Below, piece after piece: positions 32,070-55,362 of a DNA stretch of 64,000 nt (position 1 is its first letter; each line of letters opens with the position of its first letter). Under the pieces are notes generated by a model that searched no databases, had not been told where the DNA came from, and saw nothing but the letters and a program-made list of their open reading frames with translations. The stretch is from Nocardioides marmorisolisilvae (GTDB lineage Bacteria; Actinomycetota; Actinomycetes; Propionibacteriales; Nocardioidaceae). The translations under genes were made by a program, and so were the position numbers. The stretch covers positions 3,596,001 through 3,660,000 of the forward strand of contig NZ_CP134227.1 in the NCBI RefSeq assembly GCF_031656915.1. Reading direction: 5' to 3'.

Positions 32070-32105
32070 TTCATAGTGGTCTTAGTCGAAGGCGGTTGGG
32101 TAGAG

Positions 32106-34129: not shown

Positions 34130-34142
34130 GGGGCGAGCAAAC

Positions 34143-34922: not shown

Positions 34923-35049
34923 GGGTGGTCGCTGGACCGCTGACGCCCTCGCAACCAGAAGCCCGAGGGAGTCGGATCTGGCAACGGACGCCGGCAAGGA
35001 CAGCCAGAATGCCGCTCGTTCATATCGAGAGGGTGGGAGCCTGATCACG

Positions 35050-36945: not shown

Positions 36946-36961
36946 AGACGTCGGGGTCGAG

Positions 36962-38061: not shown

Positions 38062-38108
38062 TTGACAGCATTGGCGTCGGGACGTGTACGGTACAGAAAG
38101 CGTTTTCT
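38062..38108 (+). promoter_or_regulatory. Promoter with LacI-type operator for the GMC operon
   Basis: A TTGACA (38062-38067) is followed by a TACGGT-like -10 (38087-38092, 19-bp spacer). AGAAAGCGTTTTCT (38095-38108) comes next, one of three AGAAARCGYTTWCT sites in this window. It lies 14 nt before the GMC start codon, where a bound repressor would block transcription. Confidence 0.65.
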
Positions 38109-38122
38109 ACGGGAGGTTCCTG

Positions 38123-39730
38123 ATGCCTGATTCGACTGCCTTCGATTACATCATTGCTGGCGGCGGCACGGCTGGGTGTGTCCTTGCCAATCGCCTGACC
38201 TCGAATCCCGAGATCTCAGTCCTGCTGATCGAGGCCGGTCGAAGTGATCGCAATCCGCTGATCCAGATACCCGCCGGGTTCGCGAAGCTCACCGCTGGAC
38301 CATACGAATGGGGGTTTCGCAGCGTCCCCCAGAAGAACTGTGATGACCGCGTGATCCCGCTAGCGCAAGGCAAGGTGATTGGTGGGGGCGGCTCGATCAA
38401 TGCTCAGGTCTTCACTCGTGGCGTCCGGCAGGACTACGACGATTGGGCGCATGAGTACGGCTGCGACGGGTGGTCAGCCAAGGAAGTCGACAAGTACTTT
38501 CTGCGGTCAGAGGGAAATGAGCGCCTCGCCGCGCCCCTCCACGGCACCGAGGGACCTCTCGGTGTCTCAGACCTCGCCAACCCGCACCCGCTCACGAGGG
38601 CCTTCGTCCGAGCCGGGCAAGAATATGGCCTGCCCTACAACGCAGACTTCAACGGCACGAGCCAGCATGGCGTGGGCTACTACCAGACGACCACAAAGGA
38701 CGGCAGGCGGTGCAGCGCCGCGGTTGGCTACCTCCGACCCGCGCGTCATCGGCGGAACCTGACCGTGTTCACGCAGACCCATGTCGCCCGAGTCGTCTTG
38801 GCTGGCAAGAGGGCTGTTGGGGTCGAAGTGATCCGTGGCGGGAGGCCGGAGCGCTTCCACGCCTCTCGGGAGGTGATTGTCTCGGGTGGTGCGTACAACT
38901 CACCGAAAATCCTTCAACTTTCGGGCATCGGCGACCCGGCAGCGCTCCGGTCCGCCGGTGTCGACATATTGCATTCACTTCCTGGTGTCGGAGCCAACCT
39001 CCACGATCACTGCGACCTGGACATCATCTATGAGCTGAAGCAGTACCAGAGCATGGATCGTCTGAGCCGAGTGCGGCCGGCGACGGCTGCTGCGGGTCTG
39101 CAGTACTTGGCGTACCGGCGCGGTCCGCTGGCCTCCACGGTGGTTGAAGGCGGAGCTTTCAGCTACGGCGAGCCAGGGCACACCATCCCGGACATTCAGT
39201 TCCACTTCCTTCCCGCTGCGGGGGTGGAAGCAGGCATCGCCGCAACACGATATGGCTACGGGGTCACGCTGAACTCCTACTTCACCCGTCCGCGAAGTCG
39301 CGGCAGCGTGCGGCTCAGTTCGCGGAACCCCTTGGATCCCCCGTTGATCGACCCCAATTACCTTGACGATCCTTACGACGTCGAGATGAGTGTCGAGGGT
39401 GTGCGGCAGAGCCGAGAGATCATGACCCAGCCCTCGATGGCGCGGCACATCAAGGCGGAGCATCTCGCAGGTGGCGCGACGCTGCGATCCACGGACGATT
39501 ACGTGCGCTTCGTTCGGGCACACGGCCGCACTTCATACCACCCCGTCGGCTCGTGCGCGATGGGCGTCACGGATGCCGCGGTCGTCTCCCCACAGCTGAA
39601 GGTTTACGGGATCGACTGCTTACGCGTAGTAGACGCATCAGTCATGCCACGCATCGTGAGCTCGAACACCCAGGCACCCACGGTCATGATCGCTGAGAAG
39701 GCTGCGGACCTGATCCTCGAGCGCGCCTAG
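38123..39730 (+). CDS. GMC-family FAD oxidoreductase (choline-dehydrogenase-like)
   Basis: ATG 38123 follows GGGAGG by 6 nt and gives 535 residues. The FAD fold has DYIIAGGGTAGCVLANRL at the N-terminus with LLIEAG at the end of the second strand. GMC signature 1 is GKVIGGGGSINAQVFTRG, signature 2 is GAYNSPKILQLSGIGDP, and the active-site His lies in TSYHPVGSCAMG, with a partner region NTQAPTVMIAEK. It should oxidise a primary alcohol to the aldehyde, passing on to the aldehyde dehydrogenase encoded 31 nt downstream. Confidence 0.93.
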   Translation: MPDSTAFDYIIAGGGTAGCVLANRLTSNPEISVLLIEAGRSDRNPLIQIPAGFAKLTAGPYEWGFRSVPQKNCDDRVIPLAQGKVIGGGGSINAQVFTRGVRQDYDDWAHEYGCDGWSAKEVDKYFLRSEGNERLAAPLHGTEGPLGVSDLANPHPLTRAFVRAGQEYGLPYNADFNGTSQHGVGYYQTTTKDGRRCSAAVGYLRPARHRRNLTVFTQTHVARVVLAGKRAVGVEVIRGGRPERFHASREVIVSGGAYNSPKILQLSGIGDPAALRSAGVDILHSLPGVGANLHDHCDLDIIYELKQYQSMDRLSRVRPATAAAGLQYLAYRRGPLASTVVEGGAFSYGEPGHTIPDIQFHFLPAAGVEAGIAATRYGYGVTLNSYFTRPRSRGSVRLSSRNPLDPPLIDPNYLDDPYDVEMSVEGVRQSREIMTQPSMARHIKAEHLAGGATLRSTDDYVRFVRAHGRTSYHPVGSCAMGVTDAAVVSPQLKVYGIDCLRVVDASVMPRIVSSNTQAPTVMIAEKAADLILERA

Positions 39731-39761
39731 CCAGCACCCAAGACGACCGGAGAGTCAGGAC

Positions 39762-41312
39762 ATGAACGTGACAATGGCTTCTGCGCCTGCAGTCCGCACA
39801 TACGGGCACTTCATCGACGGCGAGACTACGTCTTCCTCGGAGCAGATTGTCCGCAGGAGCCCGGCAACCGGCCAGCCACTTGCGACATTCGCACGAGGCA
39901 CGGCTGACGATGTCGACCGTGCCGTGAAGGCTGCTCGTCGCGCCTTCGACGAAGGCCCTTGGCCTCGCCTCAGCGGTCTGGAGCGTGGGCGCGTCCTGTT
40001 ACGCCTTGCGGACCTGATGGGTCGCGACCTCGACAAACTCGCCATGATCGAGGCTGCCGAGGTGGGAAAGCCAATTCGGCAGGCACGCGCCGACGTCGAG
40101 AACTCGATCGCACTGACACAGTACGCAGCCTCACTGTCCATGAGCGCGCACGGCGAGATCTATTCCAACCTCGGAGAGCATCTCACGGGGATGGTCATCA
40201 GAGAGCCCTGTGGTGTGGTCGGCATGGTCACTCCTTGGAACTTTCCGCTCCTGCAACTGGTACAGAAGTTGCCTTTTGCCCTGGGTGCTGGTTGCACCGC
40301 GGTTTGCAAGCCCGCTGAAGTCGCGTCGGGGACGACGGTCGAGCTCGCTGCGCTCTGCGCCGAAGCTGGCGTACCCGCTGGTGCGTTCAATGTCGTCACC
40401 GGAGCGGGCAGCACCGCTGGTCAAGCGCTGACGGAATCGAGCCTTATCGACATGGTGTCCTTTACCGGGAGCACCGGCATCGGTCGCTCAGTGATCGCTG
40501 CAGCGCAGACGAACATCAAGCGGGTGTCCCTCGAGCTTGGGGGCAAGGGAGCCACGATCGTCTTCGCGGACGCCGACCTCGAGGACGCTGTGGAGGCTGC
40601 CATCTATGCCAACGTCTTCAACTCCGGCGAATGCTGCGTCTCGGGCACACGTCTCCTGATCGATCGACGTGTGGCTGATGACTTCACCGCGGCGCTCGGT
40701 GAGCGGCTCGGCGACTTGCGCGTCGGGGACCCTATGGATCCGGAGACGGACATCGGTCCAATGATCCATGATGCTCACCTCGCAAAGGTGATCTCGATGA
40801 TTGACCACGCGCTCAGCGAGGGCGGTTCAATTGTCGCAGGTGGAAGCCGGCTCAGCGGCGCGCCTTACGATGCCGGCTCGTTCGTGGCACCGACGGTGAT
40901 CGACGAGGTTCGGGTCGAATCTCAGCTCTTTCGCGAGGAGGTCTTCGGTCCGGTTCTCGCTGTCACCCGATTCGACAGCCAGGATGAGGCGATCCGGCTC
41001 GCAAACGCCGTCGACTACGGCCTCGCCAACTCGGTCTGGACGAAGAACCTCGACCTCGCGTGGACCACGGCGCGGCGGCTTCGGTCTGGCACTGTGTGGA
41101 TCAACACGACCATCGATGGGGCCCCCCAGCTCCCTGGCGGTGGTGTGAAGCTCAGCGGTGTCGGTAGAGAGATGGGACAGGCTGGCTTTGACGAGTTCAC
41201 CGAGCACAAGACGATCCAGCTCCGGACCGGTGGGTGGGAACGCTCCATTGCTGGACGAGCAGAACAGGACCCCGCGGGCGCCCCCGGTCCAGAGGCAAGG
41301 CCTGCTTCATGA
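39762..41312 (+). CDS. NAD(P)-dependent aldehyde dehydrogenase
   Basis: This 516-residue protein carries the ALDH motifs: MVTPWNFPLLQLVQKLPFAL, GSTAGQALTESSLIDMVSFTGST, catalytic Glu in SLELGGKGATIVFADADLEDA, catalytic Cys in NSGECCVSGTRLL (family usually GQxC), and EVFGPVLAVTRFD. It converts the aldehyde made by the GMC enzyme to the acid. It overlaps the DUF993 gene by 4 nt (ATGA). Confidence 0.93.
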   Translation: MNVTMASAPAVRTYGHFIDGETTSSSEQIVRRSPATGQPLATFARGTADDVDRAVKAARRAFDEGPWPRLSGLERGRVLLRLADLMGRDLDKLAMIEAAEVGKPIRQARADVENSIALTQYAASLSMSAHGEIYSNLGEHLTGMVIREPCGVVGMVTPWNFPLLQLVQKLPFALGAGCTAVCKPAEVASGTTVELAALCAEAGVPAGAFNVVTGAGSTAGQALTESSLIDMVSFTGSTGIGRSVIAAAQTNIKRVSLELGGKGATIVFADADLEDAVEAAIYANVFNSGECCVSGTRLLIDRRVADDFTAALGERLGDLRVGDPMDPETDIGPMIHDAHLAKVISMIDHALSEGGSIVAGGSRLSGAPYDAGSFVAPTVIDEVRVESQLFREEVFGPVLAVTRFDSQDEAIRLANAVDYGLANSVWTKNLDLAWTTARRLRSGTVWINTTIDGAPQLPGGGVKLSGVGREMGQAGFDEFTEHKTIQLRTGGWERSIAGRAEQDPAGAPGPEARPAS

Positions 41313-42466
41313 TTCGAATCGACCTACCGACTGCTGATGGTGACGCGAAACCGTACCGGCTCAGCGGCCTATCGACGGATCTGACCCAGGCGCCACCGCC
41401 ACAAAGCAGGGTGGCTTACGCCGCTGTGCACGTGATTGCCGATGCTCGTCGAGCCTCGATCCCGGAGCACACGCGCTGCATAGATTGGGAGGGGACCCTG
41501 CGGCAGCGGAGCAGGATCTGGGATCTAGGTCTGGGCGTGGCCGAGGCTATGGATACTGCACAGCGGGGGATGGGTCTCCCGTGGTCAGATGTGCACCGCC
41601 TGGTGCGCATGACTCTCGAGGCCGCTAAACCGCGTGGCGCAAGCACCGTCGTCGGCATCGGTACCGACGCGCTGCCACCCGGACCGACCGGGATCGAACG
41701 GATCGTCGACGCCTACCTCGAAGAGCTCGACTTCGTCGAAGGTCTAGGTGGGACCGCCGTTATGATGCCAAGCCGCCAGTTGGCGGCGACGGCGACTACG
41801 CCCGAGCATTACGTGAAGGTGTACGACGCCGTTCTCGCTGATGCCCGCCGACCGGTCATCCTCCACTGGCTCGGTGAGCAATTCGACCCATGTCTTAAGG
41901 GCTATTGGGGGATCAACGATCCCGCCGAGGCTGTTGACACCGTCGCTGAGATCGTCCGCAGTCGGCCAGACGTGGTCGACGGCATCAAGATGTCGGTGCT
42001 TGACCCGGCTCTGGAGGAGGAGATTCGGGGCAGATTGCATGGGGAGCAGCGGGTGTACACCGGCGACGACTTCCACTATGTCGATCTGATCGGCGGTACC
42101 GCACGAGGACATAGCCACGCGCTCCTGGGCGCATTCGCCGCGATCGCGCCCATTGCGCGGCTCGCACTTGGCCACCTCGACGATGGGGACCTTCTCGGTT
42201 ATCGGCGGACACTTGGACCTACCGAGCAACTATCCCGGCTCCTGTTCGAGGCTCCCACGCAGTACTACAAGACCGGCATCGCCTGGATCGCCTACCTCCA
42301 GGGTTATCAGGACCACTTCCGCATGCTGGCGGGCCTCGAGGCCGGTAGAAGCGTCGTACATCTGGCCGAGCTCTTCAAGGAGGCCGACACCATCGGACTC
42401 TTCACCGACCCCAGTGAGGCTGCACGGAGAATGCAGCGCTATCTGACGTTGCACGGAATGGCGTGA
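41309..42466 (+). CDS. DUF993-family protein (dihydrodipicolinate-synthase-like TIM barrel)
   Basis: ATG 41309 gives 385 residues. RVAYAAVHVIADARRA, IDWEGTLRQRSRIWDLGLGVAEAMDTAQRGMGL and the lysine-containing DVVDGIKMSVLDPALEEEIR, followed by YTGDDFHYVDLIGG, match what I recall of DUF993 proteins, which resemble class I aldolases of the DapA type. The conserved K in GIKMS is a candidate Schiff-base lysine. An aldol cleavage or a decarboxylation/dehydration of an acid made by the ALDH would suit the operon. No reaction has been shown, as far as I know. Confidence 0.75.
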   Translation: MIRIDLPTADGDAKPYRLSGLSTDLTQAPPPQSRVAYAAVHVIADARRASIPEHTRCIDWEGTLRQRSRIWDLGLGVAEAMDTAQRGMGLPWSDVHRLVRMTLEAAKPRGASTVVGIGTDALPPGPTGIERIVDAYLEELDFVEGLGGTAVMMPSRQLAATATTPEHYVKVYDAVLADARRPVILHWLGEQFDPCLKGYWGINDPAEAVDTVAEIVRSRPDVVDGIKMSVLDPALEEEIRGRLHGEQRVYTGDDFHYVDLIGGTARGHSHALLGAFAAIAPIARLALGHLDDGDLLGYRRTLGPTEQLSRLLFEAPTQYYKTGIAWIAYLQGYQDHFRMLAGLEAGRSVVHLAELFKEADTIGLFTDPSEAARRMQRYLTLHGMA

Positions 42467-42467
42467 G

Positions 42468-43277
42468 ATGGATATTGGGCGCTTGAGCCTTAACTCGATG
42501 ACAGTCCCCTCGCTCAGTCTCGAGGAGCTGGTTGATAAGGCAGTCGGTCGCGGTATACCCGCGGTCGCGCCGTGGCGAAATCTGTTGCGCGAGGACCTGC
42601 CCGCCTCAGCGGCTCGACGCTGCTTGGTGGACGCTGGCTTGCACGTCAGCTCACTGTGCCGTGGCGGACTGTTCACGTCGTCGAGTCGCGCCGGACGTGC
42701 CGCTGCCATCGAGGAGACTATGCGGGCGATCGACGAGGCCGCCGAACTAGCCGCGGAGTGCTTGGTTATGGTCTGCGGCCCCGTTGTGGAGAAGGACGTG
42801 GCCGGTTCCTTCTCCATGGTGCGCGACGGCCTCGGGGCGGTGATCGACCACGCCGAGCGCGCCGGCGTCAACCTGGGGCTGGAGCCACTGCATCCGATGA
42901 TGTCCGCGGACCGTTCCGTCGTCGCGTCGCTGAGGGACGCCCACGACCTGATCGTGGAGTTGGGATGGCCGCATCGTCTGGGCGTAGTGATCGACCTGTA
43001 CCACGTTTGGTGGGATCGTGAGTTGCCTCGGTACGTCGAGCTGCTATCGGATCGGATCCTGGGTCTCCATGTCTCTGATTGGGTCACACCCCTCACGGGT
43101 GGGATTGCTTCGGGCCGGGGGATGATGGGTGACGGGTCCATTGACATCCCGGGTTTGGTGCGAGCCATTCCCTGGCCTGGCTTCATCGAGGTCGAAGTTC
43201 TCAGCGATGAGCTGTGGCAAAGGCCCGTCGAAGACACGCTGGACCTGGTCGTTGAGCGGTTCGGCAGCCATGTCTGA
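42468..43277 (+). CDS. Sugar phosphate isomerase/epimerase-like TIM-barrel protein
   Basis: This 269-residue protein of the AP-endonuclease-2 (Xylose isomerase-like) superfamily has VDKAVGRGIPAVAPWRNLL, LGLEPLHPMMSADRSVVASL (metal-binding E), LGVVIDLYHVWWD (D, H) and GFIEVEVLSDELW (E). It should isomerise or epimerise a keto-sugar-type compound. The start lies 1 nt after the DUF993 stop codon, so the two are probably made in equal amounts. Confidence 0.88.
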   Translation: MDIGRLSLNSMTVPSLSLEELVDKAVGRGIPAVAPWRNLLREDLPASAARRCLVDAGLHVSSLCRGGLFTSSSRAGRAAAIEETMRAIDEAAELAAECLVMVCGPVVEKDVAGSFSMVRDGLGAVIDHAERAGVNLGLEPLHPMMSADRSVVASLRDAHDLIVELGWPHRLGVVIDLYHVWWDRELPRYVELLSDRILGLHVSDWVTPLTGGIASGRGMMGDGSIDIPGLVRAIPWPGFIEVEVLSDELWQRPVEDTLDLVVERFGSHV

Positions 43278-43368
43278 CTACAGTCTGCAGCGCGGGCGGT
43301 CGGCGGAATCAGACGGGCCGCCCCAACAGGCCGTTTCACGTCGCTCGCGTAACAACAGGAGGGCCGCG

Positions 43369-44373
43369 ATGCCTCGGCAGGTGGGGATCCAGGCTGTAGC
43401 CGATCGTGCAGGGGTCTCGACGGCGACCGTGTCGCGGGTGATGAGTGGGTCCACGTCGGTGAACGCCGAGATGACCGAACGTGTACGCGAGGCGGCAGCT
43501 CAGCTCGGGTATCGTCCCAACAGCGCGGCACGGGGGCTCGCATCGGGCGTGCTTCGAAACGTCGGCGTGCTTATGCCAGACATGACCAACCCCTATTTCT
43601 CGAACGTCCTGCAAACGGTCAGCCAGCAGGCAGAGAAGCAGGACTACCGTCTGGTCGTCGCAGACTCACGGCAACGACTTGATCAGGAGCTCAGCATCTG
43701 TTTGGGGCTGGCGGCGCAGACTGATGCGCTGTTGTTGCTGGCGCCGAGGATGCCGGCCGCGGACTTGAAGACCCTGGCACGACGCGAGATGCCCGTCGTG
43801 ATCGTGAACCGGGTGGAGCTCGGCGTCGACCTACCCATGATCGCCGTCGACAACTTCTCTGCGATGCTGGAGATCTGCACTAATCTGGCGCAGCTCGGCC
43901 ATCGTCGGGCGGTATATCTCGCCGGTCCTCGGGAGTCGTGGCAGAACCAGGAACGGTGGCGGGCGGTCCAACAAGCCAGGATCTTCGGCTTGGAAGCTAC
44001 GCTCGTTCAGACCGACGGGACCCTCGAGTCGGGATTCCATAGCATCGAAGAAGCACTCAAGACCGATCCGACGGCGCTCATCGGCTTCAACGATCTGGTC
44101 GCGGTGGGGGCGATCTCCGCACTGCGACGCAAGGCGCTCGCGGTCCCCAGAGATCTCTCGGTGACAGGGTTCGACGACAGCGCCTTGGGTCGCTACACGG
44201 AGCCGCGGCTGACGACCGCGAAGAGTCCAATGCTTCAGCTGGGCGACGAGGCCTGGCGACTTGTCTGGACGGCCCTCGAGGGAGAGCGCCCCGAGAACCC
44301 GCCTCTGCTGCCAGCAGAGGTCGTACTTGGCCAGTCCACCGGCCCTCGGCCGAACGGTAAGCGCTCTCTATAG
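43369..44373 (+). CDS. LacI-family regulator of the second catabolic block
   Basis: ATG 43369 lies 5 nt after AGGAGGG and gives 334 residues. An ATG at 43270, overlapping the previous gene, lacks a ribosome site and would add 33 residues without family features. The N-terminal HTH and hinge are VGIQAVADRAGVSTATVSRVMSG...LGYRPNSAARGLASG. The ligand domain follows (NVGVLMPDMTNPYFSNVLQ to DLSVTGFDDSALGRYTEPRLTT). It is the clear candidate to bind the three AGAAARCGYTTWCT sites. It has no such site of its own and seems to be read from the GMC operon. Confidence 0.93.
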   Translation: MPRQVGIQAVADRAGVSTATVSRVMSGSTSVNAEMTERVREAAAQLGYRPNSAARGLASGVLRNVGVLMPDMTNPYFSNVLQTVSQQAEKQDYRLVVADSRQRLDQELSICLGLAAQTDALLLLAPRMPAADLKTLARREMPVVIVNRVELGVDLPMIAVDNFSAMLEICTNLAQLGHRRAVYLAGPRESWQNQERWRAVQQARIFGLEATLVQTDGTLESGFHSIEEALKTDPTALIGFNDLVAVGAISALRRKALAVPRDLSVTGFDDSALGRYTEPRLTTAKSPMLQLGDEAWRLVWTALEGERPENPPLLPAEVVLGQSTGPRPNGKRSL

Positions 44374-44453
44374 AGCGGGATGTCGCCGCGCTGGCTGGCA
44401 GAGCCCCAGGGCTGAGCCGGCAGCGTCCCCGTGTCACGCCATGCCCTCGTCGG

Positions 44454-44492
44454 TTGACACCAGTTTCCGTCGGATGATAGAAAGCGCTTACT
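44454..44492 (+). promoter_or_regulatory. Promoter with LacI-type operator for the SDR operon
   Basis: TTGACA (44454-44459) is followed 19 nt later by AGAAAGCGCTTACT (44479-44492), which overlaps a TAGAAA -10 element. The core AAGCGCTT is a perfect palindrome. The ribosome site AGGAGG (44497-44502) and ATG 44507 follow directly. The geometry equals that at 51378-51416. Confidence 0.75.
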
Positions 44493-44506
44493 GAACAGGA
44501 GGCGCC

Positions 44507-45265
44507 ATGAAACTGCTAGACAAGGTCTGCGTCGTCACCGGCGGCACGTCCGGAATCGGGTTGGCGGTCGTTCGTCTGTTCGCGCAGCACGGCGCAACGC
44601 AGGTGGTGATGTCCTTGGACGTCGATGGCTGCGACGACCTTCGCAAGGAGGCCGCAGAGGCTGGATGGCCGGTGCGTGTTCTCGTAGGCGATGTTGGCGA
44701 CCCGGCGGTCTGGGAAGACGCGATGGCGGTCGCCGGGGAAGTCGGGCCAGTCGACGTGCTGGTCAACAACGCCGGCTACGGCATCCAGGGCACGGTCCTC
44801 GAGACGTCGATCGCCGACTGGGAGGCGCTGTTCAAGACCAATACGGCCGGTGTCTTCTTGGGCTGTCGCGCGGTGCTGCCCCAGATGGTGACGCGAGGCT
44901 CCGGGTCGATCGTGAACGTCAGCTCGGTCGCCGGGCAGATCGGGATGTCGCGGCGCGCTGCATACTGCGCTTCGAAGGCGGCAGTAGTCGGGCTCACCAG
45001 GGCGATGGCTGTCGACCACGCCAAGGACGGCATTCGCGTGAATGCGGTTGCTCCTGGGACAACGGATTCGCCGTACTTCGACAAGATCGCAGCCGATGTC
45101 GCCGACCCGACGGTCTACCGGCGGTACCTCGCCGGACGGCAGTTGATGGATCGGCTCGCAGATCCTCAGGAGATCGCACAAGCTGTCCTGTTTCTGGCGA
45201 GCGATGCGGCGTCTTTTGCGACCGGTTCAGTGGTGACTGTCGACGGTGGAATGAGCGTCGTCTGA
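44507..45265 (+). CDS. Short-chain dehydrogenase/reductase
   Basis: This 252-residue classical SDR has the cofactor loop TGGTSGIGLAVVRLF at the N-terminus, NNAGYG, catalytic Ser in IVNVSSVAGQIG, YCASKAAVVG with Tyr and Lys, and the C-terminal ATGSVVTVDGGMSVV. It oxidises a hydroxyl group of a pathway intermediate with NAD(P). The stop codon overlaps the next start by one base. Confidence 0.93.
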   Translation: MKLLDKVCVVTGGTSGIGLAVVRLFAQHGATQVVMSLDVDGCDDLRKEAAEAGWPVRVLVGDVGDPAVWEDAMAVAGEVGPVDVLVNNAGYGIQGTVLETSIADWEALFKTNTAGVFLGCRAVLPQMVTRGSGSIVNVSSVAGQIGMSRRAAYCASKAAVVGLTRAMAVDHAKDGIRVNAVAPGTTDSPYFDKIAADVADPTVYRRYLAGRQLMDRLADPQEIAQAVLFLASDAASFATGSVVTVDGGMSVV

Positions 45266-46836
45266 TGGCATCGAGCGGAGCATTGACGGGCGGCGCCGGT
45301 CGCTTCGCGACCCCGGACGAGGCCGCAGCGGTGTTCGAGGACGGCATGGTTGTCGCGGTCACTGGATCAGGCGGAGGAATCCTCGAGGCGGACGCCGTGT
45401 TTGCGGCAATAGAGCGACGCTTTCTCACCACCGGACATCCGCGCGACCTGACGGTCGTGCACGGACTGGGTATCGGCGACGGCCAAGCTACGGGTCTGAA
45501 CCGCTTCGCTCATGTGGGCCTAGTGAAGTGCGTGATTGGCGGTCACTGGTCCTGGTCTCCGGCCATGCAGGACCTCGCGATGCGCGGATGCATCGAGGCT
45601 TACTCACTGCCCGCTGGCGTGATCGCGGCGCTGTTGCGTGAGAGCGGCGCCCGACGCCCGGGACTGTTCACCAAGGTCGGACTTGGAACGTTCGTGGATC
45701 CGCGACGCGAGGGCGGCCGGCTTAATGCCGAAAGTCGACAGGATCTGGTCACGCTGGTTCAGGTCGACGGGGAGGAGTACCTCCACTACAAGCCGTTACA
45801 TGTGGACATCGGCATCGTGAGGGGCAGCTCCGCCGATGCGTTTGGAAACGTCAGCGCTGCTGAGGAAGCCAGCATTCTGGATAGCCGGGCGGTTGCGCTC
45901 GCGGCCCGCGGAGCGGGCGGCTTGGTCATCGCACAGGTGAAGCATCGTGCCGAGTTGGGCGAGCAGGATCCCCGGTTGGTGAGTATCCCGGCGCCGATGG
46001 TCGACGTGGTGGTTGTCAGCCCCACGCAGTGGCAGACCTATGCCGCCGAGCACGATCCCGCCTTCAACACGCCTGCACCTCCCGGGTGGCCAGCCTCAAC
46101 GATCGCGCCCCCGACCGACGGCGCACGCGCGATCGTGGCGCTCCGTGCGGCTATGGAGGTCGTTGATGGCGACGTCGTCAATGTCGGCTTTGGAATGAGC
46201 GCCGGTGTGGTCGACGTGCTGAGCCGACAGGGCCGGCTACACGACATCCAGCTCGTAATAGAGCAAGGAGCTGTGGGTGGATCGCCGGAGAGTGGGGATC
46301 TGTTCGGGCTCAGCCGGCATCCGTCCGCGCTGATGGACTCCCTGACCCAGTTCGACTTCTTTGCTACCGGGATGATCGACGTCGCGATCTTGGGAATGGG
46401 CGAGACAGATCGGGCGGGCAACGTCAACGTGAGCAAACTTGGACCCGCGACGGTCGGACCCGGCGGTTTCATCGACATCGTTCACAGCGCAAGTCGACTC
46501 GTGTTCTGCGGCACGTTCACGGCTCGCGGCCTTTCAGTGGCGACAGAGGGCGGCACCCTGCGCATCCTTCGGGAGGGCTCGGTCCACAAGTTCGTGGACC
46601 ACGTCAGCCAGGTGACATTCGATGCCGCTGGTTCGCCGGCCAGAAATCAGACAGCCCTATACATCACTGAGCGGGCCGTATTCGAACTAGGTCCCGACGG
46701 GCTGACCTTGCGAGAGGTCGCTCCGGGCATCGACATCGAGCGAGACATCTTGCGCCACATGGACTTCGTTCCACGCATGGATGGCGTACGCACGATGCCC
46801 GCCGCCATCTTCGAAGGCGACCACCAACCGGTCTGA
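45265..46836 (+). CDS. Acetate/propionate-type CoA-transferase (family I)
   Basis: ATG 45265 gives 523 residues, the size of fused alpha-beta family I CoA-transferases (YdiF/Pct). The first half has EDGMVVAVTGSGGGILEADAVF and GLFTKVGLGTFVDPRREGG. The second half has DVVNVGFGMSAGVVDVL and IQLVIEQGAVGGSP, whose Glu is the expected catalytic residue (family ExG), then ATGMIDVAILGMGETDRAGNVNVSKLG. It would activate a short acid from the pathway with CoA from a donor thioester, feeding the acyl-CoA dehydrogenase downstream. Confidence 0.9.
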   Translation: MASSGALTGGAGRFATPDEAAAVFEDGMVVAVTGSGGGILEADAVFAAIERRFLTTGHPRDLTVVHGLGIGDGQATGLNRFAHVGLVKCVIGGHWSWSPAMQDLAMRGCIEAYSLPAGVIAALLRESGARRPGLFTKVGLGTFVDPRREGGRLNAESRQDLVTLVQVDGEEYLHYKPLHVDIGIVRGSSADAFGNVSAAEEASILDSRAVALAARGAGGLVIAQVKHRAELGEQDPRLVSIPAPMVDVVVVSPTQWQTYAAEHDPAFNTPAPPGWPASTIAPPTDGARAIVALRAAMEVVDGDVVNVGFGMSAGVVDVLSRQGRLHDIQLVIEQGAVGGSPESGDLFGLSRHPSALMDSLTQFDFFATGMIDVAILGMGETDRAGNVNVSKLGPATVGPGGFIDIVHSASRLVFCGTFTARGLSVATEGGTLRILREGSVHKFVDHVSQVTFDAAGSPARNQTALYITERAVFELGPDGLTLREVAPGIDIERDILRHMDFVPRMDGVRTMPAAIFEGDHQPV

Positions 46837-46861
46837 TCACTCAGGAAGAAGAAGAGGTCCT

Positions 46862-48028
46862 ATGTCCATCGCCACCGCCACGCCCCAGGAAGCCGAGGAA
46901 CGCGCCGCCCTGATCTCGATGGTGCGGGACTTTGCCGCCCGACACATCGCGCCAGTGGTCGAAGAGCTCGATGCTACCGAGCGCTTTCCCGAGGAGATCT
47001 ACAAGATGATGGGCTCCTTGGGCCTCTTCGGGGTCAGTGTCCCGGAGGTGGATGGGGGAGCGGGAGGCACGGTATCGGACTACGTGGCCGTCATGGAAGA
47101 ACTGTCCTACGGCTATGCAAGTGTGGCGGATCAGTGCGGCCTAGTCGAACTGGTGACATCTCTTTTGGCTCGCTATGGCACAGATGACCAGAAGAGCCGC
47201 TACATACCGGGCCTCGTGTCAGGGGAGCTTCGAGCTAGCTACGCACTCACCGAGCCCCAGGCAGGCTCAGATCTAGGTGGCGTCAAGACACGTGCCCGGC
47301 GTGACGGCAAGGACTGGGTGCTCAACGGCGAGAAGATCTACATCCACAATGCGCCGGTCGCCGATGTCGCCATGGTTCTTGCAGTGACGGACCCGACCAA
47401 GGGCAAGCGGGGAGGGATGTCGATGTTCCTTGTGGACACAGACGTGCCGGGAGTCGAAAGGGCCTATCGCGAGAAGAAGATGGGGCAGAAGGCCTCGCCC
47501 GTGGGAGGATTCGTCTTCACTGATGTTCGCCTTCCCGATGCCGCGCTCCTGGGGGAAGCGGGCGCTGGCTTCTCCGCGGTGTTGCACGTCCTTGAGAAGG
47601 GCCGCCTTGGCATCGGCGCGCTTGCTAACGGCATATCTCGCGCTGCCCTGGACACGGCACTGGAACACGCGACCTCTCGTCACCAGTTCGGTCGCCCGAT
47701 TGCGGACAACCAGGCAGTCGCGTTCGAACTGGCGAATATGGCATTGGATCACCGAGCTTCGACGCTGCTACTTCAGCGAGGTGCTGATCTGATCGATCGT
47801 GGCGAGCCGGCCAATGCTGCGTCGTCAATGGCGAAACTCTTCGCCTCGGAGGCGGCGATTCGTAACGCGGGGCGGGCAGTTCAGATACTCGGCGGCGCCG
47901 GGTACATCCGGGGCGTCACCGCTGAGCGGCTGTACCGAGATGCCCGGATCACTACGATCTACGAGGGCACTAGCGAAGTACAGCGGCTCATCATCAGCCG
48001 AGACCTCATCGCCAGCCGTCGGTCGTGA
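46862..48028 (+). CDS. Acyl-CoA dehydrogenase
   Basis: ATG 46862 gives 388 residues, a normal length. N-terminal helices, then YALTEPQAGSDLGGVKTRA (FAD-binding strand), GQKASPVGGFVFTDVRLP, SRHQFGRPIADNQAVAFELANM and the catalytic Glu in YRDARITTIYEGTSEVQRLI. It oxidises an acyl-CoA to an enoyl-CoA with an electron-transfer flavoprotein as partner. No ETF genes are near. Overlap of 4 nt with the glycerate kinase gene. Confidence 0.93.
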   Translation: MSIATATPQEAEERAALISMVRDFAARHIAPVVEELDATERFPEEIYKMMGSLGLFGVSVPEVDGGAGGTVSDYVAVMEELSYGYASVADQCGLVELVTSLLARYGTDDQKSRYIPGLVSGELRASYALTEPQAGSDLGGVKTRARRDGKDWVLNGEKIYIHNAPVADVAMVLAVTDPTKGKRGGMSMFLVDTDVPGVERAYREKKMGQKASPVGGFVFTDVRLPDAALLGEAGAGFSAVLHVLEKGRLGIGALANGISRAALDTALEHATSRHQFGRPIADNQAVAFELANMALDHRASTLLLQRGADLIDRGEPANAASSMAKLFASEAAIRNAGRAVQILGGAGYIRGVTAERLYRDARITTIYEGTSEVQRLIISRDLIASRRS

Positions 48029-49260
48029 ACCGGGCCATGGTTATGGGCCATGCCGTTGAACGAGATTTGCGATCAGGCGCACCGGCGCAGCGGGTCCTCG
48101 TGGCGATGGACAAGTTCAAAGGCTCGGTCACCGCACGCCAGGCGTGTGCCGCGGTCGCGACTGGAGTCCGTGATGTGCATCCTCGGGCAGACGTGGTGCA
48201 GCGACCCATCGCCGACGGCGGCGACGGAACCCTTGAAATGTTGTTGGCGACCGGCTATCAACCTCGCACCGTTGCTTGCCATGGGGTTATTGGGGAACCG
48301 CGCAGCGCGCAGGTCGCATTGTCGGGGGGCCAGGTATTCATTGAATTGGCTGCGGTCTGTGGCCTGCAGCTCCTGGGCCCAGTCCGGCGAGAGCCTTGGT
48401 GTGCCTCCAGCTTCGGGCTGGGGTCGGCGATCAGATCAGCGCTTGACCTAGGTGCACAAGAGGTCATCCTGGGGCTCGGTGGTAGCGCCTCGAGCGATGG
48501 TGGGCTTGGGATGCTGGTCGCGCTTGGTGCTGGCGTCAAGGACGGCTCCTCGCAACTCGTCAGCCCCGACACGCGGGGGGTCCTGACGGCCGAGGACCTT
48601 GATCTTTCGACCATTGATCGGCGCCTGCGTAACGTGGGTTTTATCGCTCTCGCCGACGTCCGGAGCCCGTTGAGCGGACCCGAGGGCGCCGCTTCGGTCT
48701 ACGGTCCGCAGAAGGGCGTTCCATCAACGGAAGTCACCAGGTTGGATCACGCCCTGCGCCGCTGGGGCGCTCTGCTATCCGTCCGGTCTGGTCGGTCCGT
48801 AGACATGCCGGGCGCAGGAGCGGCAGGCGGGATCGGGGCGGCAGTTCTCGCCCTAGGTGGCTCTGTCATCCCAGGTGCCGGCTACCTATTGGACCGGATA
48901 GCCATCGATCAGATCCTTGAACGCGCCGATCTTGCTGTTACAGGCGAAGGGTCGTGGGATGCGCAGAGCTGGCAAGGGAAGGCGCCTGCAGAGTTGCTCA
49001 AGCGTGCTTCGCGCCTTAACGTTCCGGCTGCTCTGGTCGCTGGCCGTATTGAGGGGACATCGCGACCGACGCAGGTGCTGGGCTCCTACTCCTTGACCGA
49101 TCTGGCCCGCGACGAGCAGACCTCCATGATGCAGGCAGCGCGGCTGCTGCGCCGTATCGGGAGCGAGATCGGGCGCAAGCACCTTGGACCAAAAGCGCGA
49201 CCGAATACACCGAATGGCCGCGCCGTTATGGATTGCGAGCCGGAGGCATCCGCAGGATGA
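48025..49260 (+). CDS. Glycerate kinase (GarK/GlxK type)
   Basis: This 411-residue protein from GTG 48025 has RVLVAMDKFKGSVTARQACAAV, RPIADGGDGTLEMLLATGYQ, SSFGLGSAIRSALDLGAQEVILGLGGSASSDGGLGML, and GAGAAGGIGAAVLALGG followed by LAVTGEGSWDAQSWQGKAP, all typical of glycerate 2-kinases. It makes phosphoglycerate, linking the pathway to glycolysis. Its place in the operon implies that one fragment of the substrate is glycerate. The C-terminus has a tail of about 25 residues beyond the usual end. Confidence 0.92.
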   Translation: MNRAMVMGHAVERDLRSGAPAQRVLVAMDKFKGSVTARQACAAVATGVRDVHPRADVVQRPIADGGDGTLEMLLATGYQPRTVACHGVIGEPRSAQVALSGGQVFIELAAVCGLQLLGPVRREPWCASSFGLGSAIRSALDLGAQEVILGLGGSASSDGGLGMLVALGAGVKDGSSQLVSPDTRGVLTAEDLDLSTIDRRLRNVGFIALADVRSPLSGPEGAASVYGPQKGVPSTEVTRLDHALRRWGALLSVRSGRSVDMPGAGAAGGIGAAVLALGGSVIPGAGYLLDRIAIDQILERADLAVTGEGSWDAQSWQGKAPAELLKRASRLNVPAALVAGRIEGTSRPTQVLGSYSLTDLARDEQTSMMQAARLLRRIGSEIGRKHLGPKARPNTPNGRAVMDCEPEASAG

Positions 49261-50099
49261 ACCCATCACAGGACCTAGCGTTGAGGCCCGTCCGACTGGC
49301 GAATGGCCGTCGCCTCGACCGGATTGGCCTTGGTGTGTACCAGATGTCGGAGGATCACGCGGATCACACCATCCACGATGCCTTGGACCTGGGCTACCGC
49401 CGCTTCGACACCGCAGCTATGTATGGCAACGAAGCTCTGTTGGGGCAGGCGCTTGCATGCTATGGGGCCGCCACTGCCCCGGAGGTTTGCGTGACCACCA
49501 AGATCTGGAACGCCGACCACGGTCATCGCTCGGCACTAGAGGCATGCGAAAGAAGTCGCCGACGGCTCGGTGTACCTCGCGTCGGTATCCTTCTCATCCA
49601 CTGGCCATGTCCAGCGCGTGACCAGTACGTCGAGACTTGGCGGGCAATGATTGAGTTGCAGAAGCAGGGACTTGTCGAGACCATCGGCGTGTCGAATTTC
49701 CAGATCGAGCACATTGAAAGGCTCATCGGCGAGACCGGCGTGGTACCGGTGATGAACCAGGTCGAGCTCCACCCACATTTCCAACAGCGACGCCTCCGAA
49801 CCTGGCACGCCGAACGCGGCATTGCAACAGAAGCGTGGAGCCCGCTCGGCCGCGGAAGTGTCTTCGAAGACACGACGCTTCAGCGCATCGCTCGACGGCA
49901 CAATCGCAGTGTCGCTCAGGTCGTGCTCCGTTGGCATCTCCAAGTAGGCAATCTAGCGATTCCCAAGGCCTCCAGCAGAGAGAGACTGCGTCAGAACATC
50001 GAATTGGGCGACTTCTACCTCGATGACCGTGACTTGGATGAGATCGACTCGTGCGATCGAAACGAACGAGGTGGCCCGGACCCATGTCTCGTGAACTGA
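49257..50099 (+). CDS. Aldo/keto reductase (AKR, 2,5-diketogluconate-reductase-like)
   Basis: ATG 49257 overlaps the previous stop and gives 280 residues. The catalytic tetrad is visible: D and Y in RRFDTAAMYGNEALLGQAL, K in VCVTTKIWN, H in GILLIHWPCP. NADPH-binding residues appear in AIPKASSRERLRQN. It reduces or oxidises an aldehyde/ketone of a sugar-like intermediate. Confidence 0.92.
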   Translation: MNPSQDLALRPVRLANGRRLDRIGLGVYQMSEDHADHTIHDALDLGYRRFDTAAMYGNEALLGQALACYGAATAPEVCVTTKIWNADHGHRSALEACERSRRRLGVPRVGILLIHWPCPARDQYVETWRAMIELQKQGLVETIGVSNFQIEHIERLIGETGVVPVMNQVELHPHFQQRRLRTWHAERGIATEAWSPLGRGSVFEDTTLQRIARRHNRSVAQVVLRWHLQVGNLAIPKASSRERLRQNIELGDFYLDDRDLDEIDSCDRNERGGPDPCLVN

Positions 50100-50181
50100 G
50101 AGACCACGATCTGGGATCCCCGGCGACCAAGCCACCGGCGTACGCGAGTGGTCCCAACACACTGAAACATGGAGGCTCCCA

Positions 50182-51201
50182 GTGACACCGATTCAGACGA
50201 GGGCTCTCGGCAGGACCAGCGTTGAGGTAAGCGCCCTCTCCTTCGGGGCAGCCCCAATTGGCAACTTCCGGACGAGCTTCACCCAGTCCGGCGCGGAGGA
50301 CATGATCCGCGACGCCTGGGAGAGCGGAATCCGATACTTCGACACCGCGCCTTCTTATGGAAATGGCCTGAGCGAACACCGAGTCGGGCATGCGCTCTAT
50401 GGCCACGATCGTGCTGACTTCACACTTTCCACAAAGGCCGGATACGTCCTCAGGCGCCGATCGCATGCGTCTGTGGACGCTGGGCTGTGGGTCGAACCGG
50501 CGCCATTCGAGGCGGCCTTCGACTACTCCTATGAGGGCGTGATGCGGAGCGTAGAGTCGAGCCTTGACCGTCTGCTCACCGATCACCTTGACATCGTCTT
50601 CATGCATGATGTGGATCGGTACACCCACGGCGCGCACCAACCGGAGGCCTTCGAAGAGGCGGTTCGGAAGGGCTTCCCGGCACTCGAGAAACTTCGAGAT
50701 GAGGGCGTGGTGCGCGCGATCGGGTTCGGCGTCAATGAGGCGGACGTATGTGCCGAAGCCATGCGGCGCGTCGACGTGGACTGCTTCTTGCTTGCAGGCC
50801 GCTACACCCTCCTGGAACAAGACCCGCTGGACGCCCTGCTGTTCAACTGCGCAGAGCAGGGAATCGGCATCGTGCTCGGCGGCGTCTATAACAGTGGGAT
50901 CTTGGCGACTGGCGCCATACCGAACGCCCACTTCAACTACGGCCCCGCACCTGCGCTGATTCTCGAGAAGACAAGCCGCATTGAGGCGGTGTGCACGAAG
51001 TACGGCGTCCCGTTGGCCGCGGCCGCCTTGCAATTCGCAAGCGCCGGACCAGCGGTCGCCAGTATTTGCATCGGGTCTCGAACGCCCGCTCAGCAGCAGC
51101 AGACGGTGGATCTACTCAACACGCGTATCCCCCCACAGCTCTGGGCGGAACTTCGAGACCTGGGGCTTGTGCGGAGCGACGCACCCGTTCCGATGGCGTG
51201 A
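50182..51201 (+). CDS. Aldo/keto reductase (sugar/pyridoxal dehydrogenase-like)
   Basis: GTG 50182 gives 339 residues. It belongs to the AKR branch of D-threo-aldose (L-fucose) dehydrogenases and pyridoxal 4-dehydrogenase: YFDTAPSYGNGLSEHRVGHAL (D, Y), LSTKAGYVLRRRS (K), LDIVFMHDVDRYTHG (H), and a C-terminal SICIGSRTPAQQQQTVDLLN. It is distinct from the first AKR, so the operon has two NAD(P)-dependent carbonyl or sugar steps. It is the last gene before a new LacI-controlled promoter. Confidence 0.9.
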   Translation: MTPIQTRALGRTSVEVSALSFGAAPIGNFRTSFTQSGAEDMIRDAWESGIRYFDTAPSYGNGLSEHRVGHALYGHDRADFTLSTKAGYVLRRRSHASVDAGLWVEPAPFEAAFDYSYEGVMRSVESSLDRLLTDHLDIVFMHDVDRYTHGAHQPEAFEEAVRKGFPALEKLRDEGVVRAIGFGVNEADVCAEAMRRVDVDCFLLAGRYTLLEQDPLDALLFNCAEQGIGIVLGGVYNSGILATGAIPNAHFNYGPAPALILEKTSRIEAVCTKYGVPLAAAALQFASAGPAVASICIGSRTPAQQQQTVDLLNTRIPPQLWAELRDLGLVRSDAPVPMA

Positions 51202-51416: not shown

Positions 51417-51549
51417 AACAACAGAGGGACCAGTCGATAGTTGGCGCAGGTACCGACTTGGAACGAGCGGCTCGGGCGCTCCACCTACAAGCCTGCTGGA
51501 CTTCTCGATTCCCGCCACCCCACAAAGACCTCCACATAGGGAGATGGGC

Positions 51550-52659
51550 ATGAAGACATTTGGCCTCAATGCAACCCGTCGTGCGTCCTCACGTCGCTTG
51601 TTCGCGCTTGGTGCGGCCGGGGTGCTGTGCAGTGCGCTCGCTGCCTGTTCGGCTGCGGGGAGTAGTGCCGGCTCAGACGGTGGCGGGAGCGGCAGCGACT
51701 TTCAGATGGTCACTGCGGTCCGCAGTTTGAGCAACCCCTACGAAGCGCAGTGGGTCCAGGGAGCGAAGTGGTACGCAGAGTCGCTTCATCTTCCGCTGAA
51801 GACGATCGTCTACAACGGGGATTCGCAGAAGGAACTGTCGGATATCAATGCGGTGCTCGCCACTGGCAAGAAGGTGATCATGGACATCAACGTGAACGCC
51901 TCGGCCGACACCCAAGCGATCGCGCGCGCCGTCACCAATGCTGGTGGTTATGTTGTCACCGAATGGAACAGCCCCTCCAGCCTGCATCCGTGGGATGTAA
52001 GCGACCATTGGGTGGCACACGTCAGCTACAACGGTGTTCCTGGTGGCGAATCGGCTGCCAAGATCCTGTTCAAGGCCTTGGGTGGTAACGGCGGGATCAT
52101 CGCTCTGCAGGGTATTGCCGACAACACGCCCGCAATCCAACGAAAGGCCGGGCTCGAGAAGGCACTTGCTCAGGCACCCGGCATCAAGCTTCTGAGCAGC
52201 CAGATCGCCAACTGGGACCAGACCACGGCGTACAACGACACCAAGACGCTGCTGACCAAGTACGGCTCACAGGTCAAGGGCATCTGGGCGGCGAACGACG
52301 ACATGGCGGTGGGCGCGGAGCGTGCTGCCGATCAGGCGAACCGCAAGGACATCGAGATCGTAAGCGCGTCTGATGCCACTCCTCAGGTCCTCAAGGACAT
52401 CGCGAGCGGTGGTCAGATCCTTGCGACCTATTCGACGGACGCACGTTATGACGGAGCGATTGGTCTCGCCATTGCCTACCAAGCGGCGACCGGCAAGATC
52501 GACGTGTCCAAACTTTCTCACTCGAAGCGGGAGTTCTACATCAAGGAGTTCCCGGTCACCGCAGCAAACGTGAAGAAGTTCCTGGCCACGCCAAGCAAAT
52601 CGGTCTTCCTGCAGGGTCTACAGGATCCGTTCGCCCGTAACGTCGGACCCATCAGCTGA
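51550..52659 (+). CDS. Sugar ABC importer binding lipoprotein (RbsB-like)
   Basis: ATG 51550 is preferred over 51544 because AGGGAG (51538-51543) is 6 nt away. The protein has 369 residues, with an arginine-rich signal peptide (RRASSRRLFALG, Tat-like) and lipobox LAAC. The Peripla_BP_4 domain follows: VTAVRSLSNPYEAQWVQGAK, a central ALQGIADNTPAIQRKAGLEK and GIWAANDDMAVGAERAADQ. It captures the carbohydrate-like substrate of the LacI regulon. Confidence 0.92.
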   Translation: MKTFGLNATRRASSRRLFALGAAGVLCSALAACSAAGSSAGSDGGGSGSDFQMVTAVRSLSNPYEAQWVQGAKWYAESLHLPLKTIVYNGDSQKELSDINAVLATGKKVIMDINVNASADTQAIARAVTNAGGYVVTEWNSPSSLHPWDVSDHWVAHVSYNGVPGGESAAKILFKALGGNGGIIALQGIADNTPAIQRKAGLEKALAQAPGIKLLSSQIANWDQTTAYNDTKTLLTKYGSQVKGIWAANDDMAVGAERAADQANRKDIEIVSASDATPQVLKDIASGGQILATYSTDARYDGAIGLAIAYQAATGKIDVSKLSHSKREFYIKEFPVTAANVKKFLATPSKSVFLQGLQDPFARNVGPIS

Positions 52660-52670
52660 GGATCGCAAAC

Positions 52671-53822
52671 ATGGCCGAGCAGGCTCCGGTCCCAGAGCGG
52701 CCCGATTCCCAGAGCGACCGCACTCGCGGAGGAACAGTGGTTCTACACAGCGAACCTTCCGTCCGGGGAGGACGCCAGGGAGATCCGGCTGGCTCCCTTC
52801 CGCCTGAGGAATCCAGTGGTCGGGCGGCTGGAGCCGGCTCGGGCGCCACCGGTGCCTGGACCCGCCGGGTTTGGAGATTTGGTGCCGGAGCGGGCCCAGG
52901 CGTCGTGCTGGTCGCGATCTGCATCTATTTCGCGCTCACTACTAGCCACTTCGCCTCGCTGGACAACGTGCAAGCGATCATCGTCCAGGCTTCGATCATC
53001 CTGATCCTGGCGGTTGGTGCCACGTACGTGATCGTGATGGGCAGCATCGACCTTTCCGTGGAGGGCGTCATGGCGGCAGCAGCGCTGACGTTCGCTCTGT
53101 TGGTGCGCAACAGCGTTAACCACCACAGCTTCGGGCTCCTGGCGGTGGTTGCCGCAGTGGCGGTCGGTCTGCTCATGGGTGCGTTCAGTGGCGCAGTTCA
53201 CGTCCTTCTGCGGGTCCCGTCCTTCATGGTGACCCTCGGTACCTGGTTCATCGGCCTGGGCATCGCAACCGTGCTCTTTGGCAGCCAGCAACCGCAGATC
53301 ATGGATAGCTCGATCCTCGGCTGGAGCCAGCCGGGGCTTCTCGGCCTGCCACTCCTGACCTACATCGCAATCGCGGTAACCCTGCTCGCCGTACTGCTCG
53401 GCAAGTACACCAAGTTCGGTAGATACAACTACGGCATCGGTGGCGACGAGTCGATCGTCAAGCTGTCCGGCGTGAACATCAGCCGACACAAGATCCTTGT
53501 GTTTGTCCTTGCGGGCGGCTGCAGCGCGCTTGCGGGCGTACTGACGACAGTCCAGCTGGGCAACGCAAGTGTCGACATGAGCTCGGGCCACCTGTTCATC
53601 ACCCTCTCGGGAGTAGTCGTGGGAGGAACACTGCTCAGCGGTGGCCGAGGCGGGGTATTCCACAGTGTGATCGGAGTCTTCATCCTCACTACTTTGGGCG
53701 ACGGACTGATCCTTGCCGGGGTCAGTCCCTACTGGCAGGGCGCGATCCAGGGCCTGATCATCGTCGGGGCGGTACTGGCCGCAAGCTGGCCTGCCAGAGC
53801 ACCGTTGAGGGTGGTGAAGTGA
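52671..53822 (+). CDS. Sugar ABC importer permease 1 (RbsC-like)
   Basis: This 383-residue membrane protein has a long hydrophilic N-terminus (about 75 residues, rich in E, R, G and S), then about 8-9 membrane segments of the BPD_transp_2 type. YVIVMGSIDLSVEGVMAAAA, a VPSFMVTLGTWFIGLGIATV segment and the late ITLSGVVVGGTLLSGGRGGVF identify the RbsC-like family. The extended N-terminus is unusual and of unknown role. Confidence 0.9.
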   Translation: MAEQAPVPERPDSQSDRTRGGTVVLHSEPSVRGGRQGDPAGSLPPEESSGRAAGAGSGATGAWTRRVWRFGAGAGPGVVLVAICIYFALTTSHFASLDNVQAIIVQASIILILAVGATYVIVMGSIDLSVEGVMAAAALTFALLVRNSVNHHSFGLLAVVAAVAVGLLMGAFSGAVHVLLRVPSFMVTLGTWFIGLGIATVLFGSQQPQIMDSSILGWSQPGLLGLPLLTYIAIAVTLLAVLLGKYTKFGRYNYGIGGDESIVKLSGVNISRHKILVFVLAGGCSALAGVLTTVQLGNASVDMSSGHLFITLSGVVVGGTLLSGGRGGVFHSVIGVFILTTLGDGLILAGVSPYWQGAIQGLIIVGAVLAASWPARAPLRVVK

Positions 53823-55357: not shown

Positions 55358-55362
55358 TCACT

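Follow-up and report, generated by a model that had tools for sequence, protein, structure and literature searches.

The DUF993 protein of a Nocardioides marmorisolisilvae operon as a candidate Schiff-base lyase within a recurrent dehydrogenase-isomerase cassette

An operon of Nocardioides marmorisolisilvae encodes a protein of Pfam family DUF993 (PF06187), and the question raised by this locus is what reaction such a protein catalyzes. The operon lies in a 64,000-nucleotide stretch of contig NZ_CP134227.1 (positions 3,596,001 to 3,660,000), which as a whole we call the window; coordinates below count from its first base. An earlier note on this DNA proposed a DapA-type aldolase that performs the key step of a pathway. 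Our reading is that the protein is a remodeled class I (Schiff-base) lyase of the DapA/N-acetylneuraminate lyase superfamily, which would carry out a retro-aldol cleavage of a ketone made by a partner dehydrogenase; to this reading, taken whole, we assign a probability of about 0.5.

Predicted fold and candidate active site of the DUF993 protein

The gene and the codons that matter for its active site are the following.

41309..42466, + strand: DUF993 (PF06187) protein, candidate Schiff-base lyase, 385 amino acids (Pfam, structure model, 4dnh homologue)
41552..41566, + strand: codons of D82-T83-A84-Q85-R86, at the place of the DapA GTTGE motif (forced full-length alignment only)
41864..41866, + strand: H186 codon, aligned within one residue of the catalytic tyrosine of DapA (alignments, conservation)
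41987..41989, + strand: K227 codon; this strand-6 lysine is the candidate Schiff-base residue (model, alignments, conservation)
42062..42070, + strand: codons of G252-D253-D254, the retained counterpart of the GDD motif in DapA (alignments, conservation)

The open reading frame (ORF) runs from an ATG at 41309, which overlaps the stop codon of an aldehyde dehydrogenase (ALDH) gene as ATGA, to a TGA at 42464-42466. It is placed as the earlier note had it, between an ALDH gene, which ends at 41312, and a xylose-isomerase-like gene, whose ATG at 42468 follows after 1 base. The protein matches the DUF993 profile over its full length (profile positions 1 to 382 of 382; 496.8 bits against a cut-off of 24). 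DUF993 was the sole Pfam family found at E values up to 0.001, so PF00701, the family of DapA, gave no match, and no NCBIfam match was found at 0.001; PF00701 matches three separate places elsewhere in the genome, the DUF993 gene not among them. The single PDB entry matched by sequence is 4dnh (phmmer E value, 9e-107; 48% identity), whose title names SMc04132 of Sinorhizobium meliloti 1021; the two proteins have the motifs HWLG, DGIK, and TGDDF in common.

We modeled the window protein with AlphaFold2 on a 21-sequence alignment (predicted local distance difference test, 90.8; predicted template modeling score, 0.90). The TIM-barrel pattern noticed earlier was borne out by eight ordered strands, read from the strand list of the model (residues 36-39, 76-79, 113-117, 149-152, 183-188, 223-229, 248-251, and 270-273). 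Together with C-terminal helices and structural matches to superfamily members, this eight-stranded barrel gives the predicted protein the DapA/N-acetylneuraminate lyase fold. Foldseek ranked 4dnh first, followed by structures of dihydrodipicolinate synthase (DHDPS), N-acetylneuraminate lyase, and YagE. The comparison with DapA that the earlier note had suggested gave, with VIA-align, a Z score of 55.7 for 4dnh and 31.1 over 291 residues for a DHDPS; among the 50 rows listed, DHDPS-type chains had Z scores of 30 to 31 over ∼290 residues at 2.3 to 2.6 Å and 12 to 18% identity.

The link to PF00701 also stands independent of the structure model, since it is found by profile-profile alignment: hhalign aligned DUF993 (21 sequences) to 20 PF00701 proteins with a probability of 95.4% (E value, 1.9e-8), and with 81 DUF993 sequences the probability was 92.4%, whereas control alignments scored 0.4 (reversed PF00701 profile), 1.5 (isomerase family), and 0.2 (dehydrogenase family). 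Homology to the neighboring xylose-isomerase-like barrel in place of DapA was not supported, given that value of 1.5. A profile search of the PDB found three DHDPS entries at E values of 0.06 to 0.19; by itself this is weak evidence, because an unrelated flagellar protein scored 0.1, within the same range. The connection to DapA is not new, as the NCBI product name for plasmid-borne relatives is already "dihydrodipicolinate synthase family protein."

The lysine in DVVDGIKMSVLD, a motif of the window protein, is K227. It lies within the sixth barrel strand (E223-229) of the model and so, as far as strand placement tells, not away from the barrel center, and in three of three alignments it falls on K160 of the DapA-type reference A2, corresponding to K161 of the Escherichia coli enzyme; the Schiff-base position proposed earlier from the letters alone is therefore where the predicted structure and the alignments also put it. 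All 81 sequences of one set have this lysine, as do all 91 of a redundancy-reduced set (117 sequences cut down by an 88% identity filter). Lysine fills two alignment columns entirely, K227 and K321, and judged from these sequences the conservation of K227 is beyond chance.

Around this lysine the active site appears changed. Invariant in all 91 sequences are D82, T83, Q85, R86, T119, D120, S155, R156, H186, W187, D193, K227, S229, D253, D254, and K321; residue 41 is His in 90 and Pro in 1. The GTTGE-type carboxylate-binding loop after strand 2 is not kept: the forced global alignment puts DTAQR there, while the local alignments start only at residue 90 or 92, so that the D82-R86 loop lies outside them. 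Nor is the catalytic strand-5 tyrosine kept under either alignment: with 21 sequences, H186 (His in 91 of 91) falls on it and W187 on the next residue; with 81 sequences, a gap stands opposite the tyrosine, and H186 comes one residue after. D120 aligns to the Asn of G-V-G-T-N, R156 is opposite a proline, and Q157 and L158 are opposite two tyrosines, with a gap close by; for the third member of the DapA triad, presumably Tyr107, no DUF993 counterpart could be assigned. DUF993 therefore resembles the PF00701 superfamily in its barrel and C-terminal helices, its strand-6 lysine, and its GxGT and GDD motifs, but differs in ∼33 extra N-terminal residues and in the GTTGE loop and strand-5 tyrosine. 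Of the DapA-type aldolase proposed earlier, then, the fold and the lysine position stood; the loss of the carboxylate loop and catalytic tyrosine and the lack of a PF00701 match speak against a DapA/pyruvate-type enzyme.

These differences bear on two other explanations. As a matter of family membership, an ordinary DapA/pyruvate aldolase is ruled out by the lack of a PF00701 match and the loss of two motifs. As a matter of function, a pyruvate-dependent aldolase or synthase of the DapA/N-acetylneuraminate lyase kind would account for the fold, the lysine, the GDD motif, and the NCBI product name; however, the missing carboxylate loop argues against pyruvate chemistry, the strand-5 tyrosine is lost too, and the genome has its PF00701 matches elsewhere, so that we regard this function as improbable. 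Scarcely more probable, and in our view unlikely, is an enzyme that forms no imine, in which H41, D82, D120, H186, D253, and D254 would serve to hold a metal or to activate water, with K227 in a purely electrostatic or structural role. The conserved set is unusually charged compared with other members of the superfamily, and there is a histidine at or beside the place of the catalytic tyrosine; but K227 sits exactly at the Schiff-base position and is replaced in 0 of 91 sequences, H41 is a proline in one of them, and alignment to the isomerase-like family fails, although that alignment tests homology rather than metal use.

Conserved cassette and proposed reaction

Of 396 genomes sampled in the window's phylum, 29 had DUF993 (counting the window's own and a weak relative, L029), as against 0 of 14 control genomes. 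We compared 20 kb around DUF993 in 20 of these 29 genomes (the phylum loci) with 20-kb control regions of those same genomes, placed at arbitrary round coordinates, counting partners by tblastn at 1e-15 and not by ORF clusters, which hold shadow ORFs in high-GC loci (e.g., L087). A Gfo/Idh/MocA dehydrogenase gene and an isomerase-like gene were each present in 20/20 phylum loci versus 0/20 controls; LacI regulator genes were present in 20/20 versus 1/20, and glycerate kinase genes in 5/20 versus 0/20. On the same strand and within 350 bp, the dehydrogenase gene lies upstream of DUF993 in 20/20 phylum loci and the isomerase gene downstream in 19/20.

A scan of a genome collection confirmed at least 595 stretches, of which the best 80 were kept as named loci; contig ends shorten several of these, so that counts from them are lower bounds, and they have no control set. 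Isomerase genes occur in at least 63 of the 80 (directly downstream of DUF993 in 57) and dehydrogenase genes in at least 60 (directly upstream in 53), followed by genes for LacI (at least 30), enolase-like proteins (at least 23), CoA-transferase (at least 19), enoyl-CoA hydratase (at least 16), ALDH (at least 12), TctA and acyl-CoA dehydrogenase (at least 6 each), and GMC oxidoreductase and glycerate kinase (at least 5 each). The titles of these best 80 include actinobacteria; alpha-, beta-, and gammaproteobacteria; Bacillota; Thermosporothrix; Gemmatimonadetes; and a Rokubacteria metagenome-assembled genome. DUF993 matches were also found in 147 of 72,556 plasmid records; from 60 listed of these 147, we picked 16 annotated regions for annotation and variety. 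The substrate of the cassette may be common, given its occurrence in bacteria of several phyla.

Because DUF993 and its two partners form a constant cassette, the earlier proposal that DUF993 performs the key step of the pathway is plausible. Solved relatives exist for all three cassette proteins: beside 4dnh, the window isomerase-like protein matches 7vpf (5e-70), 3qc0 (6e-55), and 3ju2 (1e-54), and for the cassette dehydrogenase, taken from locus L104, the match is 3oqb (5e-175). Their titles (3ju2, uncharacterized protein SMc04130; 3qc0, sugar isomerase; 7vpf, xylose isomerase; 3oqb, oxidoreductase) give no proven pathway role, and both 4dnh and 3ju2 are uncharacterized. One cassette, residues at the catalytic places of DapA, and two gene contexts would turn these orphan structures into one testable pathway.

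In the window, the DUF993 gene lies in an operon with the following other genes.

38084..39730, + strand: GMC oxidoreductase, choline-dehydrogenase-like (profile scans; 69% identity to part of a Rhodococcus plasmid gene)
39762..41312, + strand: ALDH (profile scans)
42468..43277, + strand: xylose-isomerase-like TIM barrel (AP_endonuc_2), the cassette partner (Pfam, PDB matches, tblastn)
43369..44373, + strand: LacI-family regulator (Pfam)
44507..45265, + strand: short-chain dehydrogenase/reductase (SDR) (Pfam)
45265..46836, + strand: family I CoA-transferase, YdiF-like
46862..48028, + strand: acyl-CoA dehydrogenase
48025..49260, + strand: glycerate kinase
49257..50099, + strand: aldo/keto reductase (Pfam)
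50182..51201, + strand: second aldo/keto reductase (Pfam)
51544..56358, + strand: ribose-type sugar ATP-binding cassette (ABC) transporter (binding protein, permease, ATPase, permease)

Judged from these results and the chemistry of the superfamily, the DUF993 protein probably acts as a retro-aldolase on a ketone from its partner dehydrogenase. The ketone would arise when a Gfo/Idh/MocA or SDR enzyme oxidizes one hydroxyl group of its substrate, which would be a sugar, polyol, or sugar acid; K227 would form an imine with this ketone, and H186 and T83 might serve as the acid-base pair, in the role of the DapA Tyr-Thr, while a retro-aldol step cuts the C-C bond. The isomerase-like partner would rearrange the substrate or the product. 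As for the window version, the GMC oxidoreductase and ALDH could turn an alcohol end into an acid, the acid fragment could then be handled by CoA-transferase and acyl-CoA dehydrogenase, and a second, three-carbon fragment could exit via glycerate kinase: the kinase points to a three-carbon unit as one product, and the presence of both CoA-transferase and acyl-CoA dehydrogenase points to an acyl-CoA as the fate of the other. The oxidative pathways for inositol and deoxyribose resemble the DUF993 cassette in using a dehydrogenase, an isomerase-like TIM barrel, and then a cleavage, and the deoxyribonate route ends with glycerate kinase; none of them is known to use a DUF993 protein. We weighed 2-deoxy sugars, branched tetritols, quinate-like acids, and inositols as substrates; nothing in our results supports them.

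Several observations weigh against a retro-aldol lyase. The His-Thr pair is a guess, since H186 falls on the DapA tyrosine in one of three alignments and one residue on in the other two, and the loop that holds T83 is placed only by a forced alignment. The DapA superfamily also holds dehydratases and a deaminase, so that C-C cleavage is not implied by the fold. The window protein itself sits on a long branch in our tree, and its operon departs from the cassette: the 3oqb-type dehydrogenase is the partner in other loci, but the cassette dehydrogenase query had no match in the window at 1e-3, and none of the 15 window genes scanned (38084-56358) belongs to that family. Glycerate kinase is absent as annotated from 9 of the 16 plasmid regions (annotated in 7), and the window kinase as tblastn query matched 5/80 named loci, 5/20 phylum loci, and 2/16 plasmid regions, although it undercounts, having matched 2 regions where 7 are annotated. 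CoA-transferase and acyl-CoA dehydrogenase gave 0/20 tblastn matches in both phylum loci and controls. With so few kinase matches and no CoA genes in the phylum sample, the three-carbon and CoA routes are not general. A literature search that left most subscription journals outside its scope found nothing on DUF993, PF06187, or 4DNH, and no activity, ligand, or substrate; we know of none.

The breadth of the superfamily also leads to the possibility, a minor one in our estimate, of a Schiff-base enzyme that performs no retro-aldol reaction, namely, a dehydratase or beta-keto-acid decarboxylase acting on the ketone from the partner dehydrogenase. DapA-like dehydratases include those for 5-keto-4-deoxyglucarate and keto-deoxy-xylonate, and acid-sugar dehydration is at hand in some DUF993 loci, given the enolase-like and TctA genes counted above and, in one plasmid locus, a gene annotated as kdgD ∼3.4 kb downstream of DUF993. 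Beside an enolase-type dehydratase, however, a second dehydratase is less needed, and in the window version no other scanned gene is an obvious C-C lyase.

We tentatively suggest, as a less probable elaboration, that DUF993 is an unrecognized class I lyase branch in which His-Thr replaces Tyr-Thr, the 2-oxo-acid loop is abolished, and the lysine attacks an internal sugar or polyol ketone from the partner dehydrogenase. It would form the core of a multi-phylum pathway with two forms. One, for acid sugars, would be marked by an enolase-type dehydratase, TctABC or NMT1 transporters, and R318; the other, linked to CoA, would be marked by CoA-transferase, enoyl-CoA hydratase, and Q318 and would have come together on two or more occasions.

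Two gene contexts and position 318

The first version, read from the plasmid regions, comprises a regulator, Gfo/Idh/MocA dehydrogenase, DUF993, and isomerase, with enolase-like proteins and TctABC or other ABC transporters in some. The second draws varying subsets from a pool of sugar ABC transporter, GMC oxidoreductase, ALDH, aldo/keto reductases, CoA-transferase, enoyl-CoA hydratase, acyl-CoA dehydrogenase, SDR, DUF993, isomerase, LacI, Dabb-domain protein, and glycerate kinase. The window belongs to this second, rarer version; its DUF993 protein thus differs in context (GMC/CoA-transferase) from the homologue on pSymB of S. meliloti Ak57 (Gfo/Idh/MocA). The Rhodococcus plasmid locus L142 has a gene set nearly identical to that of the window, its GMC oxidoreductase being 69% identical over the part compared. 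Ten of the 16 plasmid regions have an annotated CoA-transferase (one of the CaiB type). Window-version genes were infrequent in phylum loci and controls (each n = 20): ALDH, 2 versus 1; GMC, 1 versus 0; SDR, 2 versus 1; and enoyl-CoA hydratase, 0 versus 1. The two aldo/keto reductases of the window had matches in 0 of the 80 named loci.

For the tree, rows were labeled A where the dehydrogenase is adjacent (57) and B where the locus has a CoA-transferase or hydratase (24); one row was both, and 9 were other. By a quick tree method, B rows formed two separate groups: one with the window and named actinobacteria (7 rows, 6 B and 1 other; Shimodaira-Hasegawa-like approximate likelihood ratio test [SH-aLRT] support, 99) and a proteobacterial one (19 rows, 17 B and 2 other; SH-aLRT support, 86), with B row L147 outside both. 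Because B rows fall into two groups, we infer that the second version became associated with DUF993 on more than one occasion or else moved at an early stage and diverged afterward.

Of the positions compared, one separates the two contexts best.

42260..42262, + strand: codon of Q318, best separator of the two gene contexts, a lead only

Position 318 is Q in 19 of the 25 rows labeled B or both, versus 2 of 57 A rows (the 9 unlabeled rows left out). It is R in 38 of the 57 A rows and, among the 16 rows whose loci have enolase-like or TctA genes, in 14; the exceptions among B rows are R in 3 and E in 3. As a specificity switch, position 318 is only a lead from the alignment, because it was chosen after viewing all positions and only three independent pairs bear on it (median p, 0.5).

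The enolase-like protein of ∼470 amino acids recurs in alphaproteobacterial DUF993 loci (L058:7386-8801 and L144:13175-14587, both + strand) and is nearly invisible to Pfam, with no match for the L058 protein and MR_MLE_C at 4e-7 for that of L144, which is without PDB relatives at 0.01. Neither the enolase-like nor the Dabb query matched the window at 1e-3. Loci of the CoA-transferase version repeatedly have small Dabb-domain proteins close to DUF993, directly upstream in two cases; those seen are the following.

L143:11672-12001: Dabb-domain protein
L192:2131-2445: Dabb-domain protein
L148:8147-8458: Dabb-domain protein
L195:15073-15381: Dabb-domain protein

Upstream of the operon (32076-37729), the window encodes a luciferase-like monooxygenase, two enoyl-CoA-hydratase-like proteins and an AMP-ligase-like ORF (all three recognized by eye), and a creatininase-like protein. 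A hydratase query from another locus matched the window at 33320-33730 and 34125-34790 (28 to 33% identity), and the two window genes match second-version loci at 26 to 36%, the level of paralogues; they could fill the hydratase role. The creatininase-like and luciferase-like genes were rejected as pathway parts: within the flanks examined, they had matches in 0/30 and 2/30 (at 25 to 26%) loci of the window type, respectively.

Further observations on relatives and mobility

The weak DUF993 relative L029 (3,789 bases; ORF 1057-2424, + strand), from another genome of the phylum, matched DUF993 at 3.1e-5 in the genome survey and at 3.6e-8 when that one sequence was searched alone. In its scanned part (1501-2289), a weak match to DUF993 was the only Pfam hit at 0.001; read by eye, it has GAKHSS and TGND versus GIKMSV and TGDD of DUF993. 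Perhaps this protein is a bridge to the wider DapA-like superfamily.

The sole printed data that we found on S. meliloti SMc04132 and SMc04133 are proteomic: comparison of phbC phaR with phbC in TY medium gave log2 values of −1.69 for SMc04132 and −3.65 for SMc04133, and both were undetected at low phosphate (PMC12542648).

A type IV secretion coupling protein (T4SS-DNA_transf, 5e-30) is encoded in the window at 61632-63323 on the − strand, ∼5 kb past the operon end. With this gene nearby and the most similar gene set seen (Rhodococcus, L142) on a plasmid, the operon may be mobile.

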